A stretch of DNA of 64,000 nt from Deltaproteobacteria bacterium (GTDB lineage Bacteria; Desulfobacterota; Desulfobacteria; Desulfobacterales; SpSt-501), in assembly GCA_016219005.1 (NCBI GenBank), contig JACRCN010000094.1:1-64000 (forward strand). The letters are read 5' to 3'. Positions 51,335 through 64,000 of the stretch are shown here, one piece after another. The translations under genes and the position numbers were made by a program. The notes beneath the pieces were generated by a model, which did no database searches, had not been told where the DNA came from, and worked only from the letters and a program-made list of their open reading frames with translations. Each line of letters starts with the position of its first letter. Position 1 is the stretch's first letter.

Positions 51335-52672
51335 TCACCCGGCGGGCTTCTCGATGACCTCGTACAGGATATCGCCGAGAAACTTGATCTCGAAGCCGAT
51401 GTGGTAGTGATGGTTGATGTCCTCAAGACCGCTGTGGCAGTTGTGACACGGCGTGATCAACACCGTCGCGCCCTTGGCCTTCACCGCGAAGAGCTGCTCG
51501 GCCTTGACGCGGTTGCCCTCGATGCGGACCATTTTATAAGGCGGCCCGGCGTTGATGACCCCGCCCCCGGCGCAGCAGCAGATGTTGTGCTCGCGGTTGG
51601 GGTGCATTTCGATGAAGTTCTCGCAGAGCGCGTTCACCACATAGCGGGCCTTGTCCGCCAGACCGCCGCCGCGCACGACGTTGCAGGGGTCGTGCAGCGT
51701 GACGGGCTCCTCGAATTTCTTGGCGACCTTCAACCGGCCGGTCTTGAGCAGGTCGTAGTAAAAATCGATGGCGTGCACGATGGGAATGGGCGGCATGCGC
51801 CAGCCGAGCCAGCGGTTGCCCACGTCGTAGACGGAGCGGAAGGCATGCCCGCACTCGCCCATGACGATTTTCTTGACCTTGAGCCGCATGGCGGTCTCAA
51901 AATGCACCCGCTTGAGGCGGCCCATGAGCTCGTTGTCGCCCGTGAACATGGCCATGTCGCTGTTGTCCCAGCCGGGGGTGGCCGGCATGGTCCAGTCGAG
52001 GCCGGCCACGTTCATGATGACGGCCGCCTGGTAGATCAGCTGGGCCTGGAACTTCGGCTCCGGGCCGATCACCGAGTACATGATCTCGGCCCCTTCCTTT
52101 TCCAGCGGAATCCTCAGGTTGGGCAGATCCCCCCGCGCCTCGTCCTCTTGCCACTGCAGGGTGTCGATCCACTCGTCCTCCTTGACCCACATCTGGTTCA
52201 TGTTGACCGAGTGGCTGTGGGCCGTGTCCTGGATGTAGCGCGGGGTGACGCCCAGCAGGTGGCAGATGCGCCGGACCACGAGCATCAGGTAGGCTACGTC
52301 GATACCGAAGGGGCAGTACATGGCGCAGCGCTTGCAAAGGTTGCACTGGGTCGAAGAGATCAACCGCGCCTGCTTGATGAACTCGGGGCTCACCCGGCCG
52401 CGCTTTTTCAACATCTCCCACAGCGTCTGTTTGACCTTGCCCACCGGCGAGTAGCGCGGGTCACGGTCGTGCGACAGGAAATAATGGCAGGCCTCCGAGC
52501 ACAGGCCGCAATGGATGCAGGTCTCCACATAGGCCTTCAGCCGGGCGCCGGTCTCCCCCGTGAGCACCCGGTTGATCGCCTTTTCGATCTTCGCTTCGGT
52601 CAGGGCTGCCATCCCGCGTTCCAGCCCCTCGTCGAGCTGTTTGCTTTTGTCCTTGGACGCAGACTCGGTCAT
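51335..52672 (-). CDS. tmcB: TmcB-like iron-sulfur protein (HdrD/DsrK family)
   Basis: 445 residues, cytoplasmic face. Two 4Fe-4S motifs occur near the N-terminus (CIHCGLCSEACHYF, CNLCKRCAMYCP). CCG-type segments follow (GECGHAFRSVYD, LHDPCNVVRGGG, CCCAGGGVINAG, TPCHNCHSGLED), which bind the non-cubane cluster in the HdrD/DsrK family. A start with TCCTAAAG-type spacing precedes ATG 52672 on the minus strand. Together with TmcA, C and D it forms the transmembrane complex linking periplasmic cytochrome c to cytoplasmic thiol/disulfide or sulfite chemistry. A 190-base structured gap separates it from tmcC. Confidence 0.92.
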   Translation of the reverse strand: MTESASKDKSKQLDEGLERGMAALTEAKIEKAINRVLTGETGARLKAYVETCIHCGLCSEACHYFLSHDRDPRYSPVGKVKQTLWEMLKKRGRVSPEFIKQARLISSTQCNLCKRCAMYCPFGIDVAYLMLVVRRICHLLGVTPRYIQDTAHSHSVNMNQMWVKEDEWIDTLQWQEDEARGDLPNLRIPLEKEGAEIMYSVIGPEPKFQAQLIYQAAVIMNVAGLDWTMPATPGWDNSDMAMFTGDNELMGRLKRVHFETAMRLKVKKIVMGECGHAFRSVYDVGNRWLGWRMPPIPIVHAIDFYYDLLKTGRLKVAKKFEEPVTLHDPCNVVRGGGLADKARYVVNALCENFIEMHPNREHNICCCAGGGVINAGPPYKMVRIEGNRVKAEQLFAVKAKGATVLITPCHNCHSGLEDINHHYHIGFEIKFLGDILYEVIEKPAG

Positions 52673-52734
52673 GGATATCTCCTAAAGATGAAGGCGGGTT
52701 CGATGCGAACCGCAATTTGTTGGCGCATGCCGGA

Positions 52735-52859
52735 GGCGGCTTGGCCCAAGGCCCGGGATCAAGGCGCGCGAATGCCGTGCGGCGAGGCGTAGCGCTCGTA
52801 CGCCGCAGCCGCAACGGCCTGAGGCGCAACGCAGCGCCTGGGCTTTGGGCCAAGCCGCC
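52735..52859. repeat. Large palindromic intergenic element between tmcC and tmcB
   Basis: GGCGGCTTGGCCCAA (52735-52749) is perfectly complementary to 52845-52859, and after one mismatch four more pairs follow. Inside is a second palindrome with TGCGGCG and GTACGCCGCA around 52776-52806. The whole 190-base gap 52673-52862 contains no gene. It resembles a REP/MITE-like element and shares its core with the hairpin at 18054-18095. Confidence 0.55.
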
Positions 52860-52862
52860 CCC

Positions 52863-53522
52863 TCACCAGTCGCGCGCATGCCGGACCCCCCCGAACTCAC
52901 TGCCCATATAGGCCCGCGTGAACGGTGCGAAAAGCATGTGGCTCAGCCGCGTGAAAGGGATGGCCGCCAGCATGATCTCGCCGGACAGGATGTGCAGGAT
53001 GAACAAGATTTCGTAGGCGAACCACTGATGGTACGCCAGAAAGCCGGTAACGAAGGGGGCGGCCGCGATGGCCAGAATGACGTAGTCCGAGGCGGAGGTG
53101 ACGTATCGGACCTCGGGCTGGGCGAGCCGGCGCACCAGAAAGTATCCGCAGCCGGCGATGACGATCACGGTCATGACGTCCGCCACCCCGTCCGGCAGCG
53201 TCCACCAGCTCAGGCCCCAGGATTCCTCCCAGAGCAACACGTGCGACAGGAGCAGTACGGGTGTAAGGATCAGCCCCAGATGGAAGGCGAAGGTCACCAC
53301 CGTGAGCACCCGGTTCATGCGCATGTTCACGGCGGCAAACGGGGTCATCCAGTGCAGGATGGAACGCAGACTGTACTTCCAGCTCATGTAGGAGTAGATG
53401 AACTTTTCTTTCCGGTGGACCAGCATGAGCAGGTGCAGGAGCCGGTACAGGCTGCCGCCGATGAACACGCCAAAGGCGGCCCACGCCAGCGGTCCCCTCA
53501 CGAACGCATAGAGATCATGCAT
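52863..53522 (-). CDS. tmcC: TmcC-like membrane subunit (NarI-type cytochrome b)
   Basis: A 219-residue membrane protein with about five hydrophobic segments (residues 10-32, 70-95, 110-130, 143-165, 168-190). His residues lie in helices as expected for heme b ligands (RLLHLLMLVH, TFAFHLGLILTPVLLLSHVL, AYHQWF, LFILHILSGEI). It anchors the Tmc complex and carries electrons across the membrane. It lies 12 bases after tmcD. Confidence 0.9.
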   Translation of the reverse strand: MHDLYAFVRGPLAWAAFGVFIGGSLYRLLHLLMLVHRKEKFIYSYMSWKYSLRSILHWMTPFAAVNMRMNRVLTVVTFAFHLGLILTPVLLLSHVLLWEESWGLSWWTLPDGVADVMTVIVIAGCGYFLVRRLAQPEVRYVTSASDYVILAIAAAPFVTGFLAYHQWFAYEILFILHILSGEIMLAAIPFTRLSHMLFAPFTRAYMGSEFGGVRHARDW

Positions 53523-53534
53523 CTTGCGCCTCCT

Positions 53535-54797
53535 TCAGCCGGCGATTTCGGAAACGGGAAGTACCCGCCGGAGGTAGCTGCCATTCTCGATGGTTCGGAA
53601 AAGTATCTTCCGGCCGTCGGGGCTGAACACCGGGTCCCAGGCGGCTTCCGCCTGCCCGTTCCAGAGACGTCCGTCGATTGCGAAGGTGTACTTGCCTTTC
53701 TTTTCGACCCGGGCGGCCGCCAGGCGGCCGTCCGGGCTGAACACCGGGGCCCAGGCCATGTCGAAGGCCTGGGGCCACACGGAATCGTCCACGATGATGT
53801 GATAGAAGCCGTTCTTCTTGCCGATGGCGGCCACCCGCTTCCCATCCGGGCTGAACACCGCGTCCGACACCAGCTCGTTGAAGGTGCTGCGCCAGGGCGT
53901 GCCGTTTACGGCGACCGTCCAGTTCCCGAACGAGAGGGCCACGACGGCCGCGAGATTGGCTCCGTCGGGGCTAAAGACCGGATGCCAGAGTTGGATAAAC
54001 CGCCGTTCCCACGCCGGGCTCCCATCGCGGGCGAGCGTCCACTGGCCGGCCTGCCGAACGGGGGCCAGCACGCTGCCGTCGCGCGGGTCGAAAACCGGTT
54101 CCCACACGCAGTTGAACGTCTGCCCCCACGGCTCCCCGTTCACGGCGATGGTGTAGTCGTATAGCGTCAGACGCACCTCAGCGGCAAGCTTTCGGCCGTC
54201 CGGGCTGATGGCCAGGTTCCACACGTTGACGAAGCGGCGCTCCCACGGCTTCCCGTCCAGCGCCGCGCTGAAGGTTCCCTGCTGAAACGCGAAGATGTCC
54301 GCCTCCCCGAAATCCGCCACCTGGACCGCCGCAGCGCTCCGGCGGCCGTCCGCGCTCAGCGTGGCGCAGGTCATGTTGGCGAAGGTGGTGGCCCAGGCAG
54401 CATCGTTCACGGCCATGCCGTAACGCATGTCCTGCTGGAACTTGACCGCGATGGAGGTTCCGTCCGCGCTGAAGCGGGGCTCCCAGACGTAGCCGAAGCG
54501 ATTCTCCCAGGGCCGGCCGTCGACGGCGAGCGTCCATTCCCCGGAATCGGAGACGATGGCCGTCAGGCGGCCGTCCGGTGCGAAGCGCAGGTGCCAGATC
54601 TTTTCGAACGGGGTCTCCCAGGTCGCACCGTTGATGCAGACGTTGAATTCACCCTCGCCGGTGTTCACAATAGCGGCGACGGACTCCCCATCGGGGCTCA
54701 CCTGAGGTTCTTCGACCCACTTGAATTGACCCTGCCATGAAGCGAAGGGTATCTCTTTGCGGAGGGAGTCCCAATCCCATTGCTCCGGGTGCTTCAT
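53535..54797 (-). CDS. tmcD: TmcD-like WD40/TolB-type repeat protein
   Basis: 420 residues of tandem beta-propeller-like repeats: units of about 45-50 residues with FSPDG, LAA, W-T-x-A-V-N/D-G and P-W-x-x-x-F recur some eight times (for example VFSPDGKRVAAIGKKNG, RFSADGTSIAVKF). No signal peptide or cofactor motif is seen. TmcD of Desulfovibrio is a Trp-rich cytoplasmic subunit of unknown role, which this matches. Start ATG 54797 has CAAGGAGG upstream; an in-frame extension to 54938 lacks one and would cover the regulatory region. It is the first gene of the cluster on this strand. Confidence 0.87.
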   Translation of the reverse strand: MKHPEQWDWDSLRKEIPFASWQGQFKWVEEPQVSPDGESVAAIVNTGEGEFNVCINGATWETPFEKIWHLRFAPDGRLTAIVSDSGEWTLAVDGRPWENRFGYVWEPRFSADGTSIAVKFQQDMRYGMAVNDAAWATTFANMTCATLSADGRRSAAAVQVADFGEADIFAFQQGTFSAALDGKPWERRFVNVWNLAISPDGRKLAAEVRLTLYDYTIAVNGEPWGQTFNCVWEPVFDPRDGSVLAPVRQAGQWTLARDGSPAWERRFIQLWHPVFSPDGANLAAVVALSFGNWTVAVNGTPWRSTFNELVSDAVFSPDGKRVAAIGKKNGFYHIIVDDSVWPQAFDMAWAPVFSPDGRLAAARVEKKGKYTFAIDGRLWNGQAEAAWDPVFSPDGRKILFRTIENGSYLRRVLPVSEIAG

Positions 54798-54912
54798 GCA
54801 GCCTCCTTGCGGAAAGTCGTGACTGTCGTCTTCCAGCAGCAGTTGCGTTCGGGACGGATGGCGGTGGACTTCGGGCTCCAGCAGACGATCGAAGAGCGCC
54901 AGCGGATATGCG

Positions 54913-54959
54913 GTTGCATTCCGGATTGTTATATACAAAATCGTGTCCGGGAATGCAAC
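54913..54959. promoter_or_regulatory. Palindromic operator candidate between tmcD and the divergent kinase gene
   Basis: GTTGCATTCCGGA (54913-54925) pairs with TCCGGGAATGCAAC (54946-54959) apart from one extra base, around an AT-rich 20-base centre. It lies between two divergent start codons, so one regulator could control both directions. A weak sigma-70-like TTGAAC-18-ATAAGT (54984-55013) faces the kinase gene. Confidence 0.5.
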
Positions 54960-55044: not shown

Positions 55045-56475
55045 ATGAACATCGCAATCGTTGGATCGGGCGGCCGGTGCATCCAGATTCTGGATTTTCT
55101 CAATTCGAGCAGAACCGGCGGAATCGGGATCAACATCCAGGGGATCGCCGATGCCCGCCGGGACCCCAACTGTCTGCTGGCGGCCGAAAAAGCCGGGATC
55201 CCGGTGTGCTCCGACTACAGGGCCTTTCTGGAACGCGAGGACATCGATCTCATCATAGATCTTTCCGCTGATCCCAAAACGTTTCAAGACATCCTGATGA
55301 ACAAAAAGAAAACGACCCGCATCATGAATTACCAGACCGCTCGTTTGTTCCTGGATATGTGTCGCATTCACGAGCAGCAGCCAAGCGCTCCGGACTCCAT
55401 CCTGCGGGCCAGCTCCATTTACAAAACCGTCATGAACGACTTCATTCACGAGGACGTACTGGTCATCGCCTCCAACTACCAGATCCTGGACGCCAATGAC
55501 GCCCTGCTGAAGCGGCTGGGCCGCACGCGCGATGAAGTCATCGGCCACAGCTGTTTCGAGGTGACCCACCATTACACCAGCCCCTGCGCGGTCGAGAGCT
55601 GCCAATGCCCCTTGAAGGAGACCCTGGCCACCCAAAAGCCTTTCACTACGACCCATGTGCACCTGGACAAGGAAAAGCGCGAGCACCACGTTGCCATTTC
55701 CTGCTACCCGCTCATGGGCCATGAAGGGCTGATCGGAGCCATCGAAATATCCAAGGACATCACCCGGGACATCATGATGCAACGGTCCCTCATGCAGCAG
55801 GATAAACTTGCCTCCATCGGCCGGCTATCGGCCGGCGTGGCGCACGAGATCAACAACCCGCTGACCACCGTACTGACCACCGTCATGCTGCTGCAGGAAG
55901 ATCTGACCCCGGAGGACCCCCTGTACCAGGAGCTCGACATTATCGCCCGGGAGACCCTGCGCTGCCGCAAAATCGTCTCGAGCCTGCTGGATTTTGCACG
56001 CCAGGGCCATCTTAGAAAAGAAACCATCGAAGTTAATCCGATTGTGGCGGAAAGTGTCGCGCTGGTCCGGAAACAAGCCGGCTTCAAGGGCATCCCGATC
56101 ACCCTTTCACTGGTCGATGGGCTGCCGGCCGCTCTGGCCGACCGCAATCAGCTTCAGCAGGCCTTCATCAATCTGCTCGTCAACGCCATCGAAGCCACCG
56201 CCTCCGGCGGCGCCATCGAGGTGGCCACCCGTTGCGACCCCGGGCGCAAAGAGATCCGCGTCGTCATCTCCGACTCCGGGTGTGGGATGTCAAAGGATGT
56301 CCAGGAGAAAATATTCGACCCCTTTTTCACCACCAAAAATAGCGGCACCGGTTTGGGCCTGGCCATCACCCACGGCATCATCGAGCAGCATGACGGCCGC
56401 ATCGATGTGGACAGCACGCCCGGTCAGGGGACGACCTTCATGATCATCCTTCCTGCGATAGGCCATACGCCATGA
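55045..56475 (+). CDS. PAS histidine kinase with an N-terminal Rossmann-type nucleotide-binding domain
   Basis: 476 residues, soluble. Residues 1-115 look like an NAD(P)- or CoA-binding Rossmann fold: NIAIVGSGGRCIQILDFL, a strand ending in GIADARRDPN, and IDLIIDLSADP, resembling the first domain of dehydrogenases. A PAS domain follows (about 125-245) with a Cys cluster (SPCAVESCQCPLKE), then HisKA with SAGVAHEINNPLTTVL and HATPase with LLVNAIEAT, DSGCGM and GTGLGLAITHG. It overlaps the NtrC-type regulator gene by 4 bases and is divergent from tmcD. I infer that it reads nucleotide redox state and phosphorylates that regulator. Confidence 0.88.
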   Translation: MNIAIVGSGGRCIQILDFLNSSRTGGIGINIQGIADARRDPNCLLAAEKAGIPVCSDYRAFLEREDIDLIIDLSADPKTFQDILMNKKKTTRIMNYQTARLFLDMCRIHEQQPSAPDSILRASSIYKTVMNDFIHEDVLVIASNYQILDANDALLKRLGRTRDEVIGHSCFEVTHHYTSPCAVESCQCPLKETLATQKPFTTTHVHLDKEKREHHVAISCYPLMGHEGLIGAIEISKDITRDIMMQRSLMQQDKLASIGRLSAGVAHEINNPLTTVLTTVMLLQEDLTPEDPLYQELDIIARETLRCRKIVSSLLDFARQGHLRKETIEVNPIVAESVALVRKQAGFKGIPITLSLVDGLPAALADRNQLQQAFINLLVNAIEATASGGAIEVATRCDPGRKEIRVVISDSGCGMSKDVQEKIFDPFFTTKNSGTGLGLAITHGIIEQHDGRIDVDSTPGQGTTFMIILPAIGHTP

Positions 56476-57899
56476 GCCGGACCGAGACTCCCCGGGTGCT
56501 CGTCGTCGACGACGAACCGCCCATCTGCCGCAGCGTCGAAAAGATCCTCGCCAAGGTGAATGTCCTCACCCGCTCCGCCCTGAACGGTCATGCGGCGCAG
56601 ACGCTCATGGAAGCCGAGTCTTTCGACGTGGTGATCACCGACCTTAGAATGAGCAGCCTGGGGGGACTGGAGGTCCTGCGCCGAGTCAAGGAGGGAAATC
56701 CCGACGCTGTGGTGATCGTGATGACCGGCTATGCCAGCGTCGCCTCGGCCGTGGAGGTCATGAAATCCGGGGCCTTCGATTACCTTCCCAAGCCCTTCAC
56801 GCCGGAGGAGCTGCGAGCCGTCGTTGGCCAGGCCCTCCAGGAAAGCGCGCGGCGAAAGCAGCACCGTGCGCTCCAGGATACGCCGGCCGGCCGCAAGCCT
56901 CTGACGCATCAATTCATCGGCGAGAGCCCGAAGATCAAGACCGTTATTTCCATGGTGAAAAAGGTGGCCGCGACGGATTCCACGGTCCTGATCTGCGGGG
57001 AAAGCGGGACCGGAAAGGAGCTGATCGCCCGAGCCGTGCACGCCAACAGCCCTCGCCGCGATCGGGTGTTTTTCGCCGTGGACTGCGGCACCCTGTCCGG
57101 GAACCTGCTCGAAAGCGAGCTGTTCGGCTTCCAGAAAGGCGCTTTCACGGGAGCCGACCGCGACAAGGAGGGCATCTTCAGCCTGGCTGCCGGCGGAACC
57201 GTGTTCCTGGACGAAATCAGCAATAGCGGCCCGGAGGTGCAGGGCAAGCTGCTGCGCTTCCTGGAGCAGCGGGAATTCCTGCCGCTGGGCGCCGGCGCCG
57301 TCCGAAAGGTCGACGTTCGCCTGATTTTCGCCACCAACCAGAACCTGGAAGACATGGTGGCCGCCGGGACGTTCCGGCAGGACTTCTATTACCGCATCCA
57401 GGTGTACCCGATCCCCCTTCCGCCGCTGCGCGAGCGGCGCGAGGACATTTTGCCGATTGCCTACCACTTTCTCAGGCTTTACAACCAAACGCTGGGGAAA
57501 AAAATTGCGGGCTTCGACGATGATGTCGCCCGCCACCTGACCGCGCACGACTGGCCCGGGAATGTCCGACAGTTGCGAAATGTCGTCGAGCGCGCGGTGA
57601 TTCTGTGCGAGAAAAGCACAATCACTTCTAAAGAGGTGCATGCGTCCGGCGAACCGGATGAAATGAACCGGCTTTTAGAGTGCGTGCCCCAAACCAGCCA
57701 TGAACTGAAGCACCTCAAGCAAGAAATCCGCGCCCGGGCGACCGCGGCCGTCGAAAAAAACTTCCTTTTACAAGCACTTGATAAAAATGCATGGAATGTG
57801 AGCCAGGCGGCCCGCCAGGTGGGTCTGTTGCGAAGCAACTTCCAGGCGCTGATGAAAAAGCACGGTATAGCGCGCAGCGCCCGTGTGAGCAAACCCTGA
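56472..57899 (+). CDS. NtrC-type sigma-54 response regulator
   Basis: 475 residues. Receiver (1-125) with VLVVDDEPPICRSVEKIL, VITDLRMSSLGG, MTGY and LPKPF; AAA+ domain (about 145-385) with Walker A GESGTGKELIA, the GAFTGA sigma-54 loop, GTVFLDEIS and the sensor region; C-terminal Fis-type HTH (WNVSQAARQVGLLRSNFQAL). All functional motifs are intact. It is translationally coupled to the Rossmann-PAS kinase. Its own receiver resembles the first receiver of the next gene product, whose promoter is a strong sigma-54 match with an upstream palindrome, so that gene is the prime target. Confidence 0.94.
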   Translation: MSRTETPRVLVVDDEPPICRSVEKILAKVNVLTRSALNGHAAQTLMEAESFDVVITDLRMSSLGGLEVLRRVKEGNPDAVVIVMTGYASVASAVEVMKSGAFDYLPKPFTPEELRAVVGQALQESARRKQHRALQDTPAGRKPLTHQFIGESPKIKTVISMVKKVAATDSTVLICGESGTGKELIARAVHANSPRRDRVFFAVDCGTLSGNLLESELFGFQKGAFTGADRDKEGIFSLAAGGTVFLDEISNSGPEVQGKLLRFLEQREFLPLGAGAVRKVDVRLIFATNQNLEDMVAAGTFRQDFYYRIQVYPIPLPPLRERREDILPIAYHFLRLYNQTLGKKIAGFDDDVARHLTAHDWPGNVRQLRNVVERAVILCEKSTITSKEVHASGEPDEMNRLLECVPQTSHELKHLKQEIRARATAAVEKNFLLQALDKNAWNVSQAARQVGLLRSNFQALMKKHGIARSARVSKP

Positions 57900-58040: not shown

Positions 58041-58059
58041 TGTATATTTAATTTATACA
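58041..58059. promoter_or_regulatory. Candidate enhancer palindrome TGTATA-N7-TATACA
   Basis: TGTATATTTAATTTATACA is a perfect 6-bp inverted repeat with a 7-base spacer, about 75 bases upstream of the sigma-54 -24 element. Further TATACA half-sites lie at 57952-57957 and 57972-57977. The surrounding 57900-58242 region is AT-rich and holds no gene. Confidence 0.6.
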
Positions 58060-58132: not shown

Positions 58133-58148
58133 TGGCACGTCCTATGCT
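58133..58148 (+). promoter_or_regulatory. Candidate sigma-54 promoter of the double-receiver gene
   Basis: TGGCACGTCCTATGCT differs from TGGCACGN4TTGCW at one position and has 10 bases between GG and GC. The leader would be about 85 bases, ending in AAGGAGGG before ATG 58243. Confidence 0.8.
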
Positions 58149-58242: not shown

Positions 58243-59904
58243 ATGGGAAAAGCTCAAAAAATTCTGGTTGTCGACGATGAATTGCAGATTTGCAAAAGCG
58301 TCGAAAAAATCCTCGCCAAGAGCAACTACCAGGTCACGCATGCCTGCAGCGCCCATGAGGCCATCGAGAAACTGGCGAAGGAGTCCTACTCCCTGCTGAT
58401 TTCAGACATCGTCATGCCCGGCAAGAACGGACTCGAACTGCTCAAGATGGTCAAGAAGGAGTGGCCGCTCACCAAGGCCGTGATGATGACGGCGTTCGCC
58501 TCCACCGATACCGCCATGAAGTCCATCCGCCTCGGCGCGCTGGACTATATCCCCAAGCCGTTCACACCCAAGGAACTGCGCAACACCGTGGACAACGCCA
58601 TCAGCGGAAAGCTGATTGAAACCGCCGCCCCGGCGAAGGAACGGGACCTGATCGACGTGATCGACATCGATGCTCCCTTTGAGGCCAAAGAGGTCATCGA
58701 ACAGGTCGGCGAGGATTACGCCAAGATGCTGGGGCGTTCCGACATGCCGGTGGTGGAGGTGAAACTCCCGGCGGCCTTGCCCAACTACTGCGAGGTCGGC
58801 ACCATGGTCTGCGACATCTTCAAGAAACTGGGGGCCACCTGCAAAGCCGGCACCAAGACCGGCGAATGCCCACAGAAAAAAGCCAAGAAGTCCGCCGCCA
58901 AATCCCAGGATGTGGACACCCGGCGGTTGGTGGGCATCGACCAGCCTTTCAGCTACGAGGACGTCGTATCGGTGACCGGACCCCAGTACGCCCATCAACT
59001 GGGTCGCGAAGGCGTGGCCTATGTCCCGTATGAGGAGCTCAGGAAAAACATGGCCGCGCATCTGAAAGCGGACGCTGCGCAGATGGATGTGGACCTCCCG
59101 TTCAACCGAAGAGAAGTCGAGCAATACACGGACACGGATTATACGGTGCGCCTGTCGCGTTCGGACGTCCAAGTGGTGGAGGTCAAGGTGCCCGAGTCGG
59201 TGCCCAATTACTGCCAGGTGGGCCATATGGTCTGCGAGATCTTCAAAAAACTGGGAGCCACCTGCAAAGCCGGCACCAAGAGCGGTGAGTGCCCTCAGCT
59301 CAAATCCAAAAAGGCCAAAGCCGCCGCGGCAGGCCCGGCCGTGGATGATCGAAAGCTCATCGCACCCGATTGGCCGTTTGAGTATGAAGAGGTAGCCGCA
59401 GCGACCGGAGCGGACTATGTCCGCCGACTGTCGGTGGAAGGCTCGATGGTCATGCCCTACGAAGAGTTGAAACGCAACATTACCGCTCTGCGCCTGCAGC
59501 CGGCGCAGGCCGATTCGCGCATGGCGAAGGCGCTCGGCACCCGGCAGATCCTGGTGGTGGACGACGAGGTTGCGGTAAACAACAACATCCGCAAAATCCT
59601 GGCCAAGAAAGCCTACCAGGTCGATCAGGCGACATCCAAGAAGGACGCCTTGGAAAAGATTCAGACACGGCCTTACGCGCTGGTCCTTTTGGACCTCAAG
59701 ATCCCGGGGGTGAAGGGGTTGGAATTGCTGGCGGCCATACGCGAGCAGCAACCGACCGCCAAAGTCATCATCATCACCGGGTATGCCAGCATCGAAACGG
59801 CGGTCGAAGGAGCCCGGATGGGAGTGATCGACTACCTCCCCAAACCCTTCACCCCTGAAGAAATCCGTAACGCCACGGAAAACGCTTTTCGCCTCGCGGC
59901 TTGA
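58243..59904 (+). CDS. Double-receiver protein with tandem Cys4 repeats between the receivers
   Basis: 553 residues. A receiver lies at each end: 5-122 (Asp55, Lys105) and 434-550 (Asp484, Lys534), both with complete motifs. Between them are two repeats of about 140 residues, each with an A part and a B part. A1 (about 140-215) and A2 (280-355) share NYCxVGxMVC and IFKKLGATCKAGTK, giving four Cys each with identical C-x6-C-x9-C-x8-C spacing (183/190/200/209 and 324/331/341/350). B1 (229-275) and B2 (371-417) lack Cys but share PFxYE, TGxxY, LxxEG and PYEEL. I do not recognise the middle domain; metal or Fe-S binding is an inference from the Cys pattern. No DNA-binding or catalytic domain is present. 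It stands alone behind a candidate sigma-54 promoter. Confidence 0.88.
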   Translation: MGKAQKILVVDDELQICKSVEKILAKSNYQVTHACSAHEAIEKLAKESYSLLISDIVMPGKNGLELLKMVKKEWPLTKAVMMTAFASTDTAMKSIRLGALDYIPKPFTPKELRNTVDNAISGKLIETAAPAKERDLIDVIDIDAPFEAKEVIEQVGEDYAKMLGRSDMPVVEVKLPAALPNYCEVGTMVCDIFKKLGATCKAGTKTGECPQKKAKKSAAKSQDVDTRRLVGIDQPFSYEDVVSVTGPQYAHQLGREGVAYVPYEELRKNMAAHLKADAAQMDVDLPFNRREVEQYTDTDYTVRLSRSDVQVVEVKVPESVPNYCQVGHMVCEIFKKLGATCKAGTKSGECPQLKSKKAKAAAAGPAVDDRKLIAPDWPFEYEEVAAATGADYVRRLSVEGSMVMPYEELKRNITALRLQPAQADSRMAKALGTRQILVVDDEVAVNNNIRKILAKKAYQVDQATSKKDALEKIQTRPYALVLLDLKIPGVKGLELLAAIREQQPTAKVIIITGYASIETAVEGARMGVIDYLPKPFTPEEIRNATENAFRLAA

Positions 59905-59926: not shown

Positions 59927-59967
59927 GTGCTGTCCCGGGAAAGGAACACCTCTTCCCGGGATAGCAC
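59927..59967 (+). terminator. Strong hairpin after the double-receiver gene
   Basis: Arms 59927-59941 and 59953-59967 pair over 15 positions with one G-U pair and an 11-base loop. There is no T-run, so termination would be rho-assisted, or the hairpin may stabilise the mRNA end. Confidence 0.5.
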
Positions 59968-60143: not shown

Positions 60144-60244
60144 GACCACTTCGTGGTGGTGAGACATGTCAAGTGGCTCAAAAAATGCTTTTATATCAAA
60201 TAATTGACTTGTTCCGCCCAACCTTATGTGAGGAGGCTTAGCGC

Positions 60245-60631
60245 ATGGCTCAGGACGTCATCGGGTCAGTGATGGTTGTCGGAGGAGGGATCGCCGGGAT
60301 GCAGGCGGCTCTCGATCTGGCCAATTCCGGATATTATGTCTACCTGCTCGAAAAATCGCCATCGATCGGGGGCGTCATGTCCCAACTGGACAAGACCTTC
60401 CCCACCAACGACTGTGCCATGTGAATTATCTCGCCCAAACTGGTCGAGGTCGGCCGGCACATGAACATCGAGTTGATCACCTACGCTGATTTGGAATCTG
60501 TCCAGGGATCCCCGGGAAATTTCAAAGTCAAAGTCAGAAAACGCGCCCGCAGCATTATCGAAGACCGCTGCACAGGATGCGGCGCGTGTGTCGAAAATTG
60601 TCCGGTGAGATTTGAGGCGCACACCAACTGA
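60245..60631 (+). CDS. HdrA N-terminal fragment with in-frame UGA, probable selenoprotein
   Basis: Translated through the UGA at 60422-60424 this is a 128-residue protein: FAD motif [13 protein letters not shown] (residues 11-23), [11 protein letters not shown], then [10 protein letters not shown] followed by Sec60 and [12 protein letters not shown], and a ferredoxin motif [13 protein letters not shown] near the end. The UGA falls exactly where the HdrA-NfnB protein of this window has the second Cys of LDCAACIGTPK, and HdrA selenoproteins are known in methanogens and Desulfobacterota. Homology continues in the same frame after the UGA, so it is not a decay stop. The frame ends at 60629-60631, right after the first ferredoxin, whereas HdrA normally continues for hundreds of residues. 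GAGGAGG precedes the start. The missing remainder appears to be fused to the NuoG-like gene at 63193. Confidence 0.78.
60440..60457 (+). promoter_or_regulatory. Candidate bacterial SECIS stem-loop
   Basis: CTGGTC (60440-60445) pairs with GGCCGG (60452-60457), using two G-U pairs, around the loop GAGGTC. The loop lies 21 bases after the UGA and contains the GGTC found in the E. coli fdhF SECIS loop. Bacterial SECIS elements are short and variable, so the UGA context is the stronger evidence. Confidence 0.55.
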
Positions 60632-60799
60632 CATGATGCCTCGCACCGGACACATACCGTTGCCTTCCGGGCCATGGGACGCCGCAGGCGGGGCAGTCCT
60701 TTCCGCTCCTCGCCCTCGCCCGACGCGAAAACCACCCGGCCCTGAATTTCTGCAATCCCCCGTCTGTCCGATGACAATTTTGCCAAAGGAAGCGTGCGC

Positions 60800-61282
60800 A
60801 TGGTAGCCAAACTGGAAATCGACTGGAGCAAAATAGAAGAGATCATCGCCCGGTATGAAAGCAACAAGGAATCCCTGTTGATGATCATGCAGGACATCAG
60901 CGACCTTTACCACTTTGTTCCGCCGGAAGTAGTTCCGGTACTGGCCGAAAAGCTGGGGGTCCGCAAAAGCCTCATATTCAGCGTCGCCACGTTTTACAAG
61001 ACGATCAGCCTGGTGCCGCGGGGAAAATATATCGTCCACGTGTGCACCGGAACCGCCTGCCATGTGAGGGGTGCGGAAAAAGTGATGGACGCGCTCAAGG
61101 GCTCGCTCGCCATCCAGGAAGGCGGGACCACGACCGATGGGCTGTTCACCCTGGAAGGGGTTCGCTGCATCGGGTGTTGCGCGTCGGGGCCGGTCATGAC
61201 GGTCAACAAGGAGACACACGGCGGCCTGGACCGATCAGCGACGCTCAAAATCATCGATGATTACCGGGGTCTTTCGTCATAG
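60800..61282 (+). CDS. NuoE/HndA-like [2Fe-2S] subunit
   Basis: A 160-residue thioredoxin-fold subunit with helical N-terminus. Its four cluster Cys lie in VCTGTACHVRGA and RCIGCCASGP, the standard NuoE/HydC pattern. AAGGAAG precedes ATG 60800 by 7 bases; a GTG two codons earlier lies too close to that site. It works with NuoF-type proteins to exchange electrons between NAD(H) and Fe-S chains, in complex I-like, hydrogenase or Hdr-linked bifurcating complexes. It starts 168 bases after the HdrA fragment; that gap holds no recognisable gene. Confidence 0.92.
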   Translation: MVAKLEIDWSKIEEIIARYESNKESLLMIMQDISDLYHFVPPEVVPVLAEKLGVRKSLIFSVATFYKTISLVPRGKYIVHVCTGTACHVRGAEKVMDALKGSLAIQEGGTTTDGLFTLEGVRCIGCCASGPVMTVNKETHGGLDRSATLKIIDDYRGLSS

Positions 61283-61318: not shown

Positions 61319-63172
61319 ATGGCAAAACTAATAAACAGAGAGGCACTTGAGAAACTGAGGCAATCCCTGCAGGCCAAGGGCAAAAAAGAGCCTCAAAAGC
61401 TCATTTCGCTTTGCGCCGGGTCGGGGTGCGGTGCTTACGGGACGGCGAAAGTCCATGAGGCGCTGACCCGGGAGCTCGCCGCCCACAAAATTCAGGACGA
61501 GGTCGAAGTCAAGCTGACCGGGTGCCACGGATTTTGCGAAAAAGGGCCGATCATGGTGATCCATCCGGAAGGCATCTTCTATCCCCAGGTCACTGCAGAG
61601 AAGGTGCCGGAGATTGTGAAAACCACCCTGATCGGCAAGGAACTGGTCGACAAATTGATCTACAAGGACCCCGTCACCAAGAAAAAAATAAGCCACGAAC
61701 ACGAGATCCCTTTTTACAAACTGCAGAAACGGGTCATCTTCGGCAACAACGGCTTGATCGACCCGACCAGCATCGAAGATTATATTGCCGTGGGCGGGTA
61801 TTCGGCCCTGTCAAAGGCACTCTGCGACATGAGCCCCCAGGAGATCATTTCGGAGATCAAGAAATCCGGCCTCAGGGGCCGCGGGGGCGGCGGCTTCCCC
61901 ACGGGAATCAAATGGGAGTCCTGCCGCAGGCATGAAGGCGTCCGCTATGTGATCTGCAACGCCGACGAGGGCGACCCGGGCGCCTACATGGATCGCAGCC
62001 TGCTGGAGGGCAATCCCCACAGTGTCATCGAAGGCATGATCATCGGTGCCATCGCCATCGGGTCCAACCAAGGCTACGTCTACGTGCGGCACGAATACCC
62101 GCTGGCCGTCACCAACCTGACCATGGCCCTCAAGAGCGCCCGGGAGCTGGGCCTGCTGGGGGAGAATGTTCTCGGCAGCGGCTTCGGTTTTGACATCCAC
62201 ATCAGCCGCGGTGGCGGGGCCTTTGTCTGCGGGGAGTCCACGGCCCTGATGGCCTCGCTCGAAGGCAAGCCCGGCCGCCCCCGGGCCAAATACGTCCATA
62301 CCGTTGAAAAAGGTTTCAGGGACGGCCCCTCCAACCTTAACAACGTCGAGACCTGGGCCAACGTTCCGGTAATCGTCAACCAGGGCGCGACCTGGTACGC
62401 GGCCATCGGCACTGAAAAAAGCAAGGGCACCAAAATCTTCTCCCTGGTCGGCAAAGTCGTGAACACCGGCCTGGTGGAAGTGCCCATGGGAACCACCCTG
62501 CGCCAGATCATCTTCGATATCGGCGGGGGGGTCCCTAAAAAGAAGAAATTCAAGGCCGTTCAGACCGGAGGCCCTTCCGGCGGCTGCATCCCGGAACAGT
62601 TCCTTGACCTGCCCGTGGATTTCGACGAATTGGCCAAGGTGGGGTCCATCATGGGTTCGGGCGGCATGATCGTCATGGACCAGGACACCTGCATGGTGGA
62701 CCTGGCCCGCTATTTTGTGGAATTCCTCAAGGATGAGTCCTGCGGACAATGCAATCCATGCCGCGAGGGCCTCAAGAACATGCTGGACATCTTGACCGAC
62801 ATCTGCCAGGGCCGCGGCAAGGAAGGCGATATCGAACTGCTGGAAGAAATCGGCATGATGATGCAGAAGCTTTCCCTCTGTGGACTGGGGACCTCCGCCC
62901 CGAATCCCGTGCTGACCAACATTTTGTACTTCCGGCACGAATACGAGGCCCACATCCGGGATAAAAAATGCCCGGCCGGCATCTGCAAGCCGCTTTTTCA
63001 CTACGACATCGATCCGGAAAGCTGCACCGGCTGCCACATCTGCTTTCAGAAGTGCCCCCAGCAGGCGGTATCCGGGGACAAAAAGAAACCCCACACCATC
63101 AACCAGGACACCTGCATCAAATGCGGCATCTGTTACGACGGATGCAAGTTCGATGCAATCAAGATTTGCTGA
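61319..63172 (+). CDS. NuoF/HndC-like NADH-binding flavoprotein subunit
   Basis: 617 residues. The N-terminus is a thioredoxin-like 2Fe-2S domain (CAGSGCGAYG, GCHGFCEKGP). Then comes the NuoF core with RGRGGGGFPTGIKWE (FMN/NADH loop), CNADEGDPGAYMDR and the cluster motif ESCGQCNPCREG. The C-terminal 60 residues hold two ferredoxin motifs (CTGCHICFQKCP, CIKCGICYDGC). This is the domain set of the NADH-oxidising subunit of bifurcating hydrogenases and related complexes rather than of respiratory NuoF, which lacks both ends. It lies 36 bases after the NuoE-like gene and 20 before the NuoG-HdrA gene. Confidence 0.95.
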   Translation: MAKLINREALEKLRQSLQAKGKKEPQKLISLCAGSGCGAYGTAKVHEALTRELAAHKIQDEVEVKLTGCHGFCEKGPIMVIHPEGIFYPQVTAEKVPEIVKTTLIGKELVDKLIYKDPVTKKKISHEHEIPFYKLQKRVIFGNNGLIDPTSIEDYIAVGGYSALSKALCDMSPQEIISEIKKSGLRGRGGGGFPTGIKWESCRRHEGVRYVICNADEGDPGAYMDRSLLEGNPHSVIEGMIIGAIAIGSNQGYVYVRHEYPLAVTNLTMALKSARELGLLGENVLGSGFGFDIHISRGGGAFVCGESTALMASLEGKPGRPRAKYVHTVEKGFRDGPSNLNNVETWANVPVIVNQGATWYAAIGTEKSKGTKIFSLVGKVVNTGLVEVPMGTTLRQIIFDIGGGVPKKKKFKAVQTGGPSGGCIPEQFLDLPVDFDELAKVGSIMGSGGMIVMDQDTCMVDLARYFVEFLKDESCGQCNPCREGLKNMLDILTDICQGRGKEGDIELLEEIGMMMQKLSLCGLGTSAPNPVLTNILYFRHEYEAHIRDKKCPAGICKPLFHYDIDPESCTGCHICFQKCPQQAVSGDKKKPHTINQDTCIKCGICYDGCKFDAIKIC

Positions 63173-63192: not shown

Positions 63193-64000
63193 ATGATCAC
63201 ATTCAAGCTAAACGGCCAGGCGGTTCAAGGCGAAAAAGGGCAGTACATCCTTCAGGTGGCGGAGAAATTCGGCGTCGACATCCCTACCCTCTGCCATCAC
63301 AAGGCACTGGAACCCGCGGGCATGTGCCGCCTGTGCACGGTGGAAGTGTTCGATGGGCGCCGGACGCGCTACGTCACCTCCTGCAACTATCCCATCTGGG
63401 AAGGCATGGAGGTCAAGACCGACACGGAGATCCTGCGGGATGGGCGCAAGCTGATCGTCGAGATGCTGCTGGCACGCTGCCCGGAATCAAAGACCGTTCA
63501 AACCCTCGCCGGGGACTACGGCATCGTCAAGCCGCGATTTCGAACCGGGGATGACACCTGCATCCTGTGCGGTCTGTGCACGCGGATGTGCGAGCGCATC
63601 GGCGCCAACGCCATCACCCTCACCCAGCGCGGCCTGGACATGAAGGTCGACACCCCGTTCAGCATCAATACCGAGGCCTGCATCGCCTGCGGGGCGTGCG
63701 CCTTCGTCTGCCCCACCGGCCACATCACTTACGATAAAATCACGGCCTGCGTGACCCAGCGGCCGGGCAAACCGATCCCCTCCGAATACGACGTGGGCCT
63801 CAAGGGGCGAAAACCCGTCTATGTTCCTTACGCCCAGGCCGTGCCCAACACCCCGGCCATCGACCGCAGCACCTGCATCCATTTCAAGACCGGCGGCTGC
63901 AAGGTCTGTGTCGAGTTCTGCGGGGTGGACGCCATCGACCACACGATGCAGGACGAGACGGTCGAGGTCAATGTCGGCTCCATTATCCTGGCGCCTGGCT
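63193..64000 (+). CDS. NuoG/HndD-type N-terminal module fused to HdrA (3' end outside window)
   Basis: The first 269 codons are visible. Residues 1-80 are a [2Fe-2S] ferredoxin domain (PTLCHHKALEPAGMCRLCTV, TSCNYP). Two 4Fe-4S motifs follow, CILCGLCTRMCERIGA and CIACGACAFVCPTGHI (near residue 175), as in NuoG/HydA. From about residue 200 the sequence turns into HdrA: PIPSEYDVGLKGRKPVYVPYAQAVPN, CIHFKTGGCKVCVEFC and VNVGSIILAPG match HdrA just downstream of its first ferredoxin. The HdrA N-terminus with the FAD motif is absent and is encoded separately at 60245. AAGGAA precedes the start. With the NuoE- and NuoF-like proteins it should form an NAD(H)-linked HdrA complex. Confidence 0.85.
   Translation, partial: MITFKLNGQAVQGEKGQYILQVAEKFGVDIPTLCHHKALEPAGMCRLCTVEVFDGRRTRYVTSCNYPIWEGMEVKTDTEILRDGRKLIVEMLLARCPESKTVQTLAGDYGIVKPRFRTGDDTCILCGLCTRMCERIGANAITLTQRGLDMKVDTPFSINTEACIACGACAFVCPTGHITYDKITACVTQRPGKPIPSEYDVGLKGRKPVYVPYAQAVPNTPAIDRSTCIHFKTGGCKVCVEFCGVDAIDHTMQDETVEVNVGSIILAPG

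Follow-up and report, generated by a model that had tools for sequence, protein, structure and literature searches.

Dual-receiver Cys4 proteins are a real, undescribed bacterial signalling family. The member studied here is encoded at 58243–59904 (+ strand) of the window, the 64,000-nucleotide stretch of DNA that was analysed. Its product is a 553-aa protein, with orthologues, of architecture REC1-(m-Cys4-m)x2-REC2, in which two receivers (REC) flank two units built from a four-cysteine segment (Cys4) and two copies of a small module (m). A scan of genome contigs found 47 related Desulfobacterales loci, with titles of Desulfobacterales, Desulfobacteraceae, or broader Deltaproteobacteria or Proteobacteria MAGs; 31 of these (L001–L031) span both units, and the remainder have one unit or are truncated by the contig. 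Recurrence in dozens of genomes and invariance of all four cysteines indicate that the architecture is not due to chance, and recurrence in independent genomes rules out an assembly or frameshift artefact. Within the order Desulfobacterales the unit profile matched 62 of the 291 genomes sampled (among them G562, which has GcvH-type proteins only); in a sample of 297 from across the phylum it matched 7, and elsewhere in the phylum the family is nearly absent. The number of units varies, with one in 28 ORFs (some of which a contig end cuts short) and two in 37, and mixed orders of the parts also occur, e.g., in L089. Neither Pfam nor NCBIfam names a REC-(m-Cys4-m)-REC architecture, and no description of the dual-receiver Cys4 arrangement was found in the literature searched.

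Receivers and repeat units

The original prediction, of two intact receivers around two Cys4 repeats with no output domain, held in full. REC1 (58261–58593, + strand; residues about 7–117) and REC2 (59548–59877, + strand; residues about 436–545) are the two stretches above the Pfam cut-off for PF00072 (E 2e-58 for the protein). The phosphorylation residues of REC1 (acidic pair D11 and D12, phospho-Asp D55, Thr/Ser T83, Lys K105) are present in all 42 aligned rows; those of REC2 (D440, D441, D484, T512, K534) are present in 39–41 of the 42, the remainder being gaps or one D-to-E change at position 440. Judged by these residues, both receivers look phosphorylatable. The best NCBIfam matches for the whole protein were likewise receiver-type models, and no output domain was matched in Pfam or NCBIfam, only the receivers being recognised. 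The protein thus resembles CheY-like receiver proteins (PF00072) that have no DNA-binding output, in having two canonical receivers, no output domain, and an expected action through protein contact; it differs from them in that the receivers flank one or two undescribed m-Cys4-m units.

The middle region comprises two units, each having C-x6-C-x9-C-x8-C spacing and a IFKKLGATCKAGTK core as predicted. The first consists of m copy 1 (58654–58761; the ID-D-PF-EV-G-Y-LGRSDMP form, recognised by hhalign against the m of the B part), Cys4 segment 1 (58789–58872; C183-x6-C190-x9-C200-x8-C209-P210), and m copy 2 (58921–59055; GIDQPFSYEDV..TGPQY..L..EG....PYEELRKN by alignment). The second consists of m copy 3 (59083–59187, by homology to m), Cys4 segment 2 (59212–59295, with spacing identical to that of segment 1), and m copy 4 (59350–59484, by alignment); all six features are on the + strand. 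The unit of ~140 aa proposed originally was borne out, but its division into A and B parts was not: the N-terminal third of A is homologous to the whole of B (hhalign 98.5%, E 2e-15), so that m-Cys4-m is the better reading.

All four cysteines are present in each of the 102 repeat units collected and their exact spacing in 99, although the units were gathered by a pattern requiring the first three spacings, so that cysteine loss there would escape the count. The three units with odd spacing come from one genus (L094–L096) and have x6 instead of x8 ahead of the last cysteine. An alignment of 74 units, reaching down to 28% identity, has ten invariant columns (C48, G51, C55, K60, C65, K66, C74, P75, P100, and F101), all four cysteines among them, and the sole family ORF lacking a full Cys4 (L047) is truncated by a contig end. 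This strict conservation, in about 60 genomes and to 28% unit identity, supports the proposal that Cys4 is a metal, Fe-S, or redox site. Because there are four cysteines and a final Cys-Pro, features that favour Fe-S or Zn over a bare disulfide, the predicted ligand is more likely to be one of the former.

Searches with the middle region and with m alone gave nothing above cut-off in Pfam, NCBIfam, or PDB sequences, and the middle region matched no described Cys4 zinc or Fe-S family in Pfam or PDB sequences. A Foldseek search of the PDB with the unit found no solved relative, returning one meaningless match. Since the repeats fit no domain described so far and their cysteines are conserved, the two outcomes that might have overturned the original prediction did not materialize. 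Resemblances to HdrC (phmmer, E 0.5) and to a terminase subunit (hmmsearch, E 0.4) were unsupported and were dropped. In AlphaFold2 (AF2) models of the full protein the receivers were well predicted and the middle region had pLDDT values of 40–60; in models of a single unit the second m, folded as a helix, a short helix, a turn, and a helix, reached about 88–92 and the Cys4 segment about 52, the latter counting, together with the lack of a solved relative, against the explanation that we favor below.

The Lys-rich stretch that follows most Cys4 segments, and the prediction of m as a small helical unit, could point to nucleic-acid binding, with Cys4 and its Lys-rich tail forming zinc fingers and m a helix-turn-helix, i.e., to an unusual transcription regulator. 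This is very unlikely: hhalign gave a probability of only 0.8% for m against HTH_17, so that a MerR/HTH_17-type helix-turn-helix was rejected, no Pfam zinc finger or HTH scored above cut-off, and Foldseek gave no match.

Predicted control by the kinase-NtrC pair

Upstream of the gene lie a histidine kinase (HK) gene (55045–56475, + strand) and a gene for an NtrC-type sigma-54 activator with receiver, AAA, and Fis HTH domains (56472–57899, + strand), both assigned from Pfam and synteny. The kinase has a Rossmann-like N-terminal segment (a weak GFO_IDH match), a PAS domain with a Cys motif, HisKA, and HATPase_c. Its N-terminal segment is swapped for a receiver in the relatives L004, L005, L035, and L037, and the PAS motif is conserved as C-(Y/F)E-TH-PC-CPL. 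The NtrC-type neighbor had been predicted, as had a special likeness of its receiver to REC1; the neighbor is there, but the special likeness fell away, identity being 44% between REC1 and the NtrC receiver and 45% between REC1 and REC2. Divergent from the kinase gene, on the – strand at 51335–54938, are tmcB, tmcC, and tmcD of the Tmc complex (NCBIfam equivalogs over cut-off), a neighbourhood not seen at related loci.

The predicted sigma-54 promoter was located at 58133–58148 (+ strand; TGGCACG-TCCT-ATGCT, score 14/15, with -24/-12 GG-N10-GC), preceded at 58041–58059 (unstranded) by a perfect TGTATA-N7-TATACA palindrome, the predicted upstream activating sequence (UAS) of the adjacent NtrC-type regulator. 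Both elements recur in relatives. Of 45 loci, 44 (all but L010) have a sigma-54 site scoring above shuffles 46–117 bp 5′ of the start codon, and 42 have the palindrome at ≤1 mismatch in the 450 bp upstream, 29 of them as an exact copy. The 518 kb of locus DNA holds only three other palindromes at ≤1 mismatch, two of them barely beyond the 450-bp limit. Where a locus extends far enough upstream, the HK and NtrC genes almost always precede the gene, also in genomes whose Hdr cluster lies in another place. The 5.24-Mb home genome has a single exact copy of the palindrome, at 58041–58059, and one further one-mismatch site; because the exact copy is unique genome-wide, the pair is predicted to act mainly or only on this gene. 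We infer from these sites that the HK-NtrC pair controls mainly the 58243–59904 gene. Like NtrC/AtoC-type sigma-54 circuits, this one has an HK-NtrC pair, a UAS palindrome, and a -24/-12 promoter; unlike them, its predicted target is essentially a single adjacent gene, which itself encodes a double receiver protein.

Such strict predicted control by the same NtrC, in a protein that has two receivers about 41–44% identical to that of NtrC and no output domain, would suit a feedback phosphate sink that competes with NtrC for kinase phosphoryl groups, with Cys4 as structural zinc and the Hdr link described below as shared ecology. This reading is less probable than the adaptor role set out below, about one chance in several, as no sink would require its Cys4-m repeats to be strictly conserved, or be expected to follow one split HdrA where the two are unlinked.

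Links to GcvH-like proteins and to a split selenocysteine HdrA

As homology indicates, m is a separate module that is present in GcvH-like proteins as well. It stands at the N-terminus of such proteins in L092, L093, L097, and L102, and makes up almost the whole of a 70-aa protein (L097:4380-4592); one m-GcvH form carries an extra Cys-rich CPFD-type segment. The m-GcvH genes resemble the dual-receiver gene in encoding m, in lying near HK-NtrC pairs (the order in L092 is HK-NtrC-(unnamed ORF)-m-GcvH-m-GcvH-HdrA), and, at three loci (L092, L093, and L097), in having strong sigma-54 sites, there without the TGTATA-N7-TATACA palindrome. They differ in having a GCV_H domain where the receivers would be, in having no Cys4, and in being confined to one family of the order. 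In the home genome m is confined to the 58243–59904 gene, and it was not found in genomes that have neither the dual-receiver family nor m-GcvH, one match in the phylum sample at E 0.005 aside.

This distribution bears on whether the protein might instead be an upstream redox or metal sensor, in which Cys4 gates the receivers and informs the kinase with no contact to the Hdr enzyme. Consistent with such a sensor are the conservation of the cysteines, the kinase PAS domain with its own conserved Cys motif, and the anaerobe setting. However, m is common to GcvH-like proteins that have no Cys4, which argues for docking rather than sensing, and we consider the sensor unlikely, somewhat more so than the phosphate sink.

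Downstream of the gene, Sec-HdrA and Nuo-like genes are present as originally predicted, except that the first encodes not a full HdrA but a conserved 128-aa HdrA fragment (60245–60631, + strand) with an in-frame TGA at residue 60 that covers HdrA2 positions 138–264. It is followed on the same strand by genes for a NuoE-like [2Fe-2S] subunit (60794–61282; Pfam PF01257, NCBIfam), a NuoF-like NADH-binding subunit (61319–63172; Pfam PF01512, NCBIfam), and, by its sequence, a 1085-aa NuoG/HoxU-HdrA fusion that starts at 63193 and continues past the window end (64000) to contig position 66450; AsrA/AsrB-like electron-transfer genes come after it. Thus nuoE and nuoF stand between the short Sec-HdrA and the rest of HdrA, which is fused to a NuoG/HoxU-like N-terminus. 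The short fragment is a widespread conserved ORF (79–94% identity), and Desulfobacterium autotrophicum HRM2 is known to have split Sec-HdrA genes (HdrA1–A3; PMC2702500). In joining HdrA to NADH-linked subunits, the cluster is akin to HdrA-based electron-bifurcating complexes such as FlxABCD-HdrABC.

Some HdrA match was found in 285 of the 291 genomes of the order. The short Sec-HdrA at ≥79% identity, a cut chosen after the list was viewed, was found in 57 of the 291, the dual-receiver family in 62, and both in 48 (Fisher p = 6e-33), in a sample whose MAGs are incomplete and whose related genomes are not independent. With stratification by taxonomic family, 45 co-occurrences were observed against 21 expected (CMH p about 1e-19). 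The two are not adjacent in 24 of 47 compared genomes, where as much as 404 kb lies between them or they are on different contigs. The family therefore co-occurs with the split Sec-HdrA, part of an enzyme for energy-conserving electron transfer, beyond linkage in these bacteria of sulfate-reducing type. Counting against our favored explanation, 14 genomes have the family without a short HdrA at ≥79% identity and nine show the reverse; likewise, no conserved sigma-54 site was found before the HdrA operon in relatives. The window itself has a sigma-54-like site before the HdrA fragment (TGGCTCA-AAAA-ATGCT, 12.75/15, within 60150–60200) that is not conserved in relatives, and in another locus a one-mismatch palindrome precedes the fragment (L036:7037). 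Directly 3′ of the dual-receiver gene, at 59927–59967, is a strong 15-bp inverted repeat (GTGCTGTCCCGGGAA...TTCCCGGGATAGCAC) with no T-run, which may separate the gene from the HdrA operon.

A possible adaptor role

The best explanation of the whole, which we hold tentatively and at somewhat less than even chances, is that the protein is a receiver-only adaptor, the main and perhaps the sole transcriptional output of the HK-NtrC pair, that tunes electron flow through the split Sec-HdrA/NuoEFG machinery. In its favor are the conserved cysteines and receivers, the recurrent HK-NtrC neighbors, sigma-54 sites, and palindrome, the co-occurrence with short Sec-HdrA, and the distribution and genomic setting of m. 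On a cue from the cytoplasm, redox or nucleotide, the kinase would phosphorylate NtrC, and phospho-NtrC, to judge from the conserved sites, would bind the palindrome and drive sigma-54 transcription of the one gene. The product would then receive phosphate at REC1, REC2, or both, for which the pair's own kinase is the simplest donor. In each m-Cys4-m unit two small motifs for docking would enclose a Cys4 site for a metal or an Fe-S cluster, and the units would attach to some component of the split Sec-HdrA/NuoEFG machinery, either directly or via the m-bearing GcvH-like proteins where these are present. Phosphorylation and Cys4 state might jointly set this interaction and so tune NADH-linked HdrA electron flow, while the protein, by drawing phosphate from the kinase, would damp its own induction. 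The more specific and bolder notion of a new class of two-component adaptors, whose m-Cys4-m metal or Fe-S switch docks on split selenocysteine HdrA and so places an electron-bifurcating enzyme directly under the control of phosphorylation and redox state, is at present a speculative one, with perhaps one chance in four of being right.

Electron-bifurcating enzymes of the HdrA type have a central place in anaerobic energy metabolism. No dedicated control of such enzymes turned up in the literature searched, nor was a dedicated two-component adaptor for HdrA complexes found there. The one-target circuit, the conserved site, and the co-occurring enzyme together make control of HdrA directly testable, and the m and Cys4 modules are undescribed protein parts.
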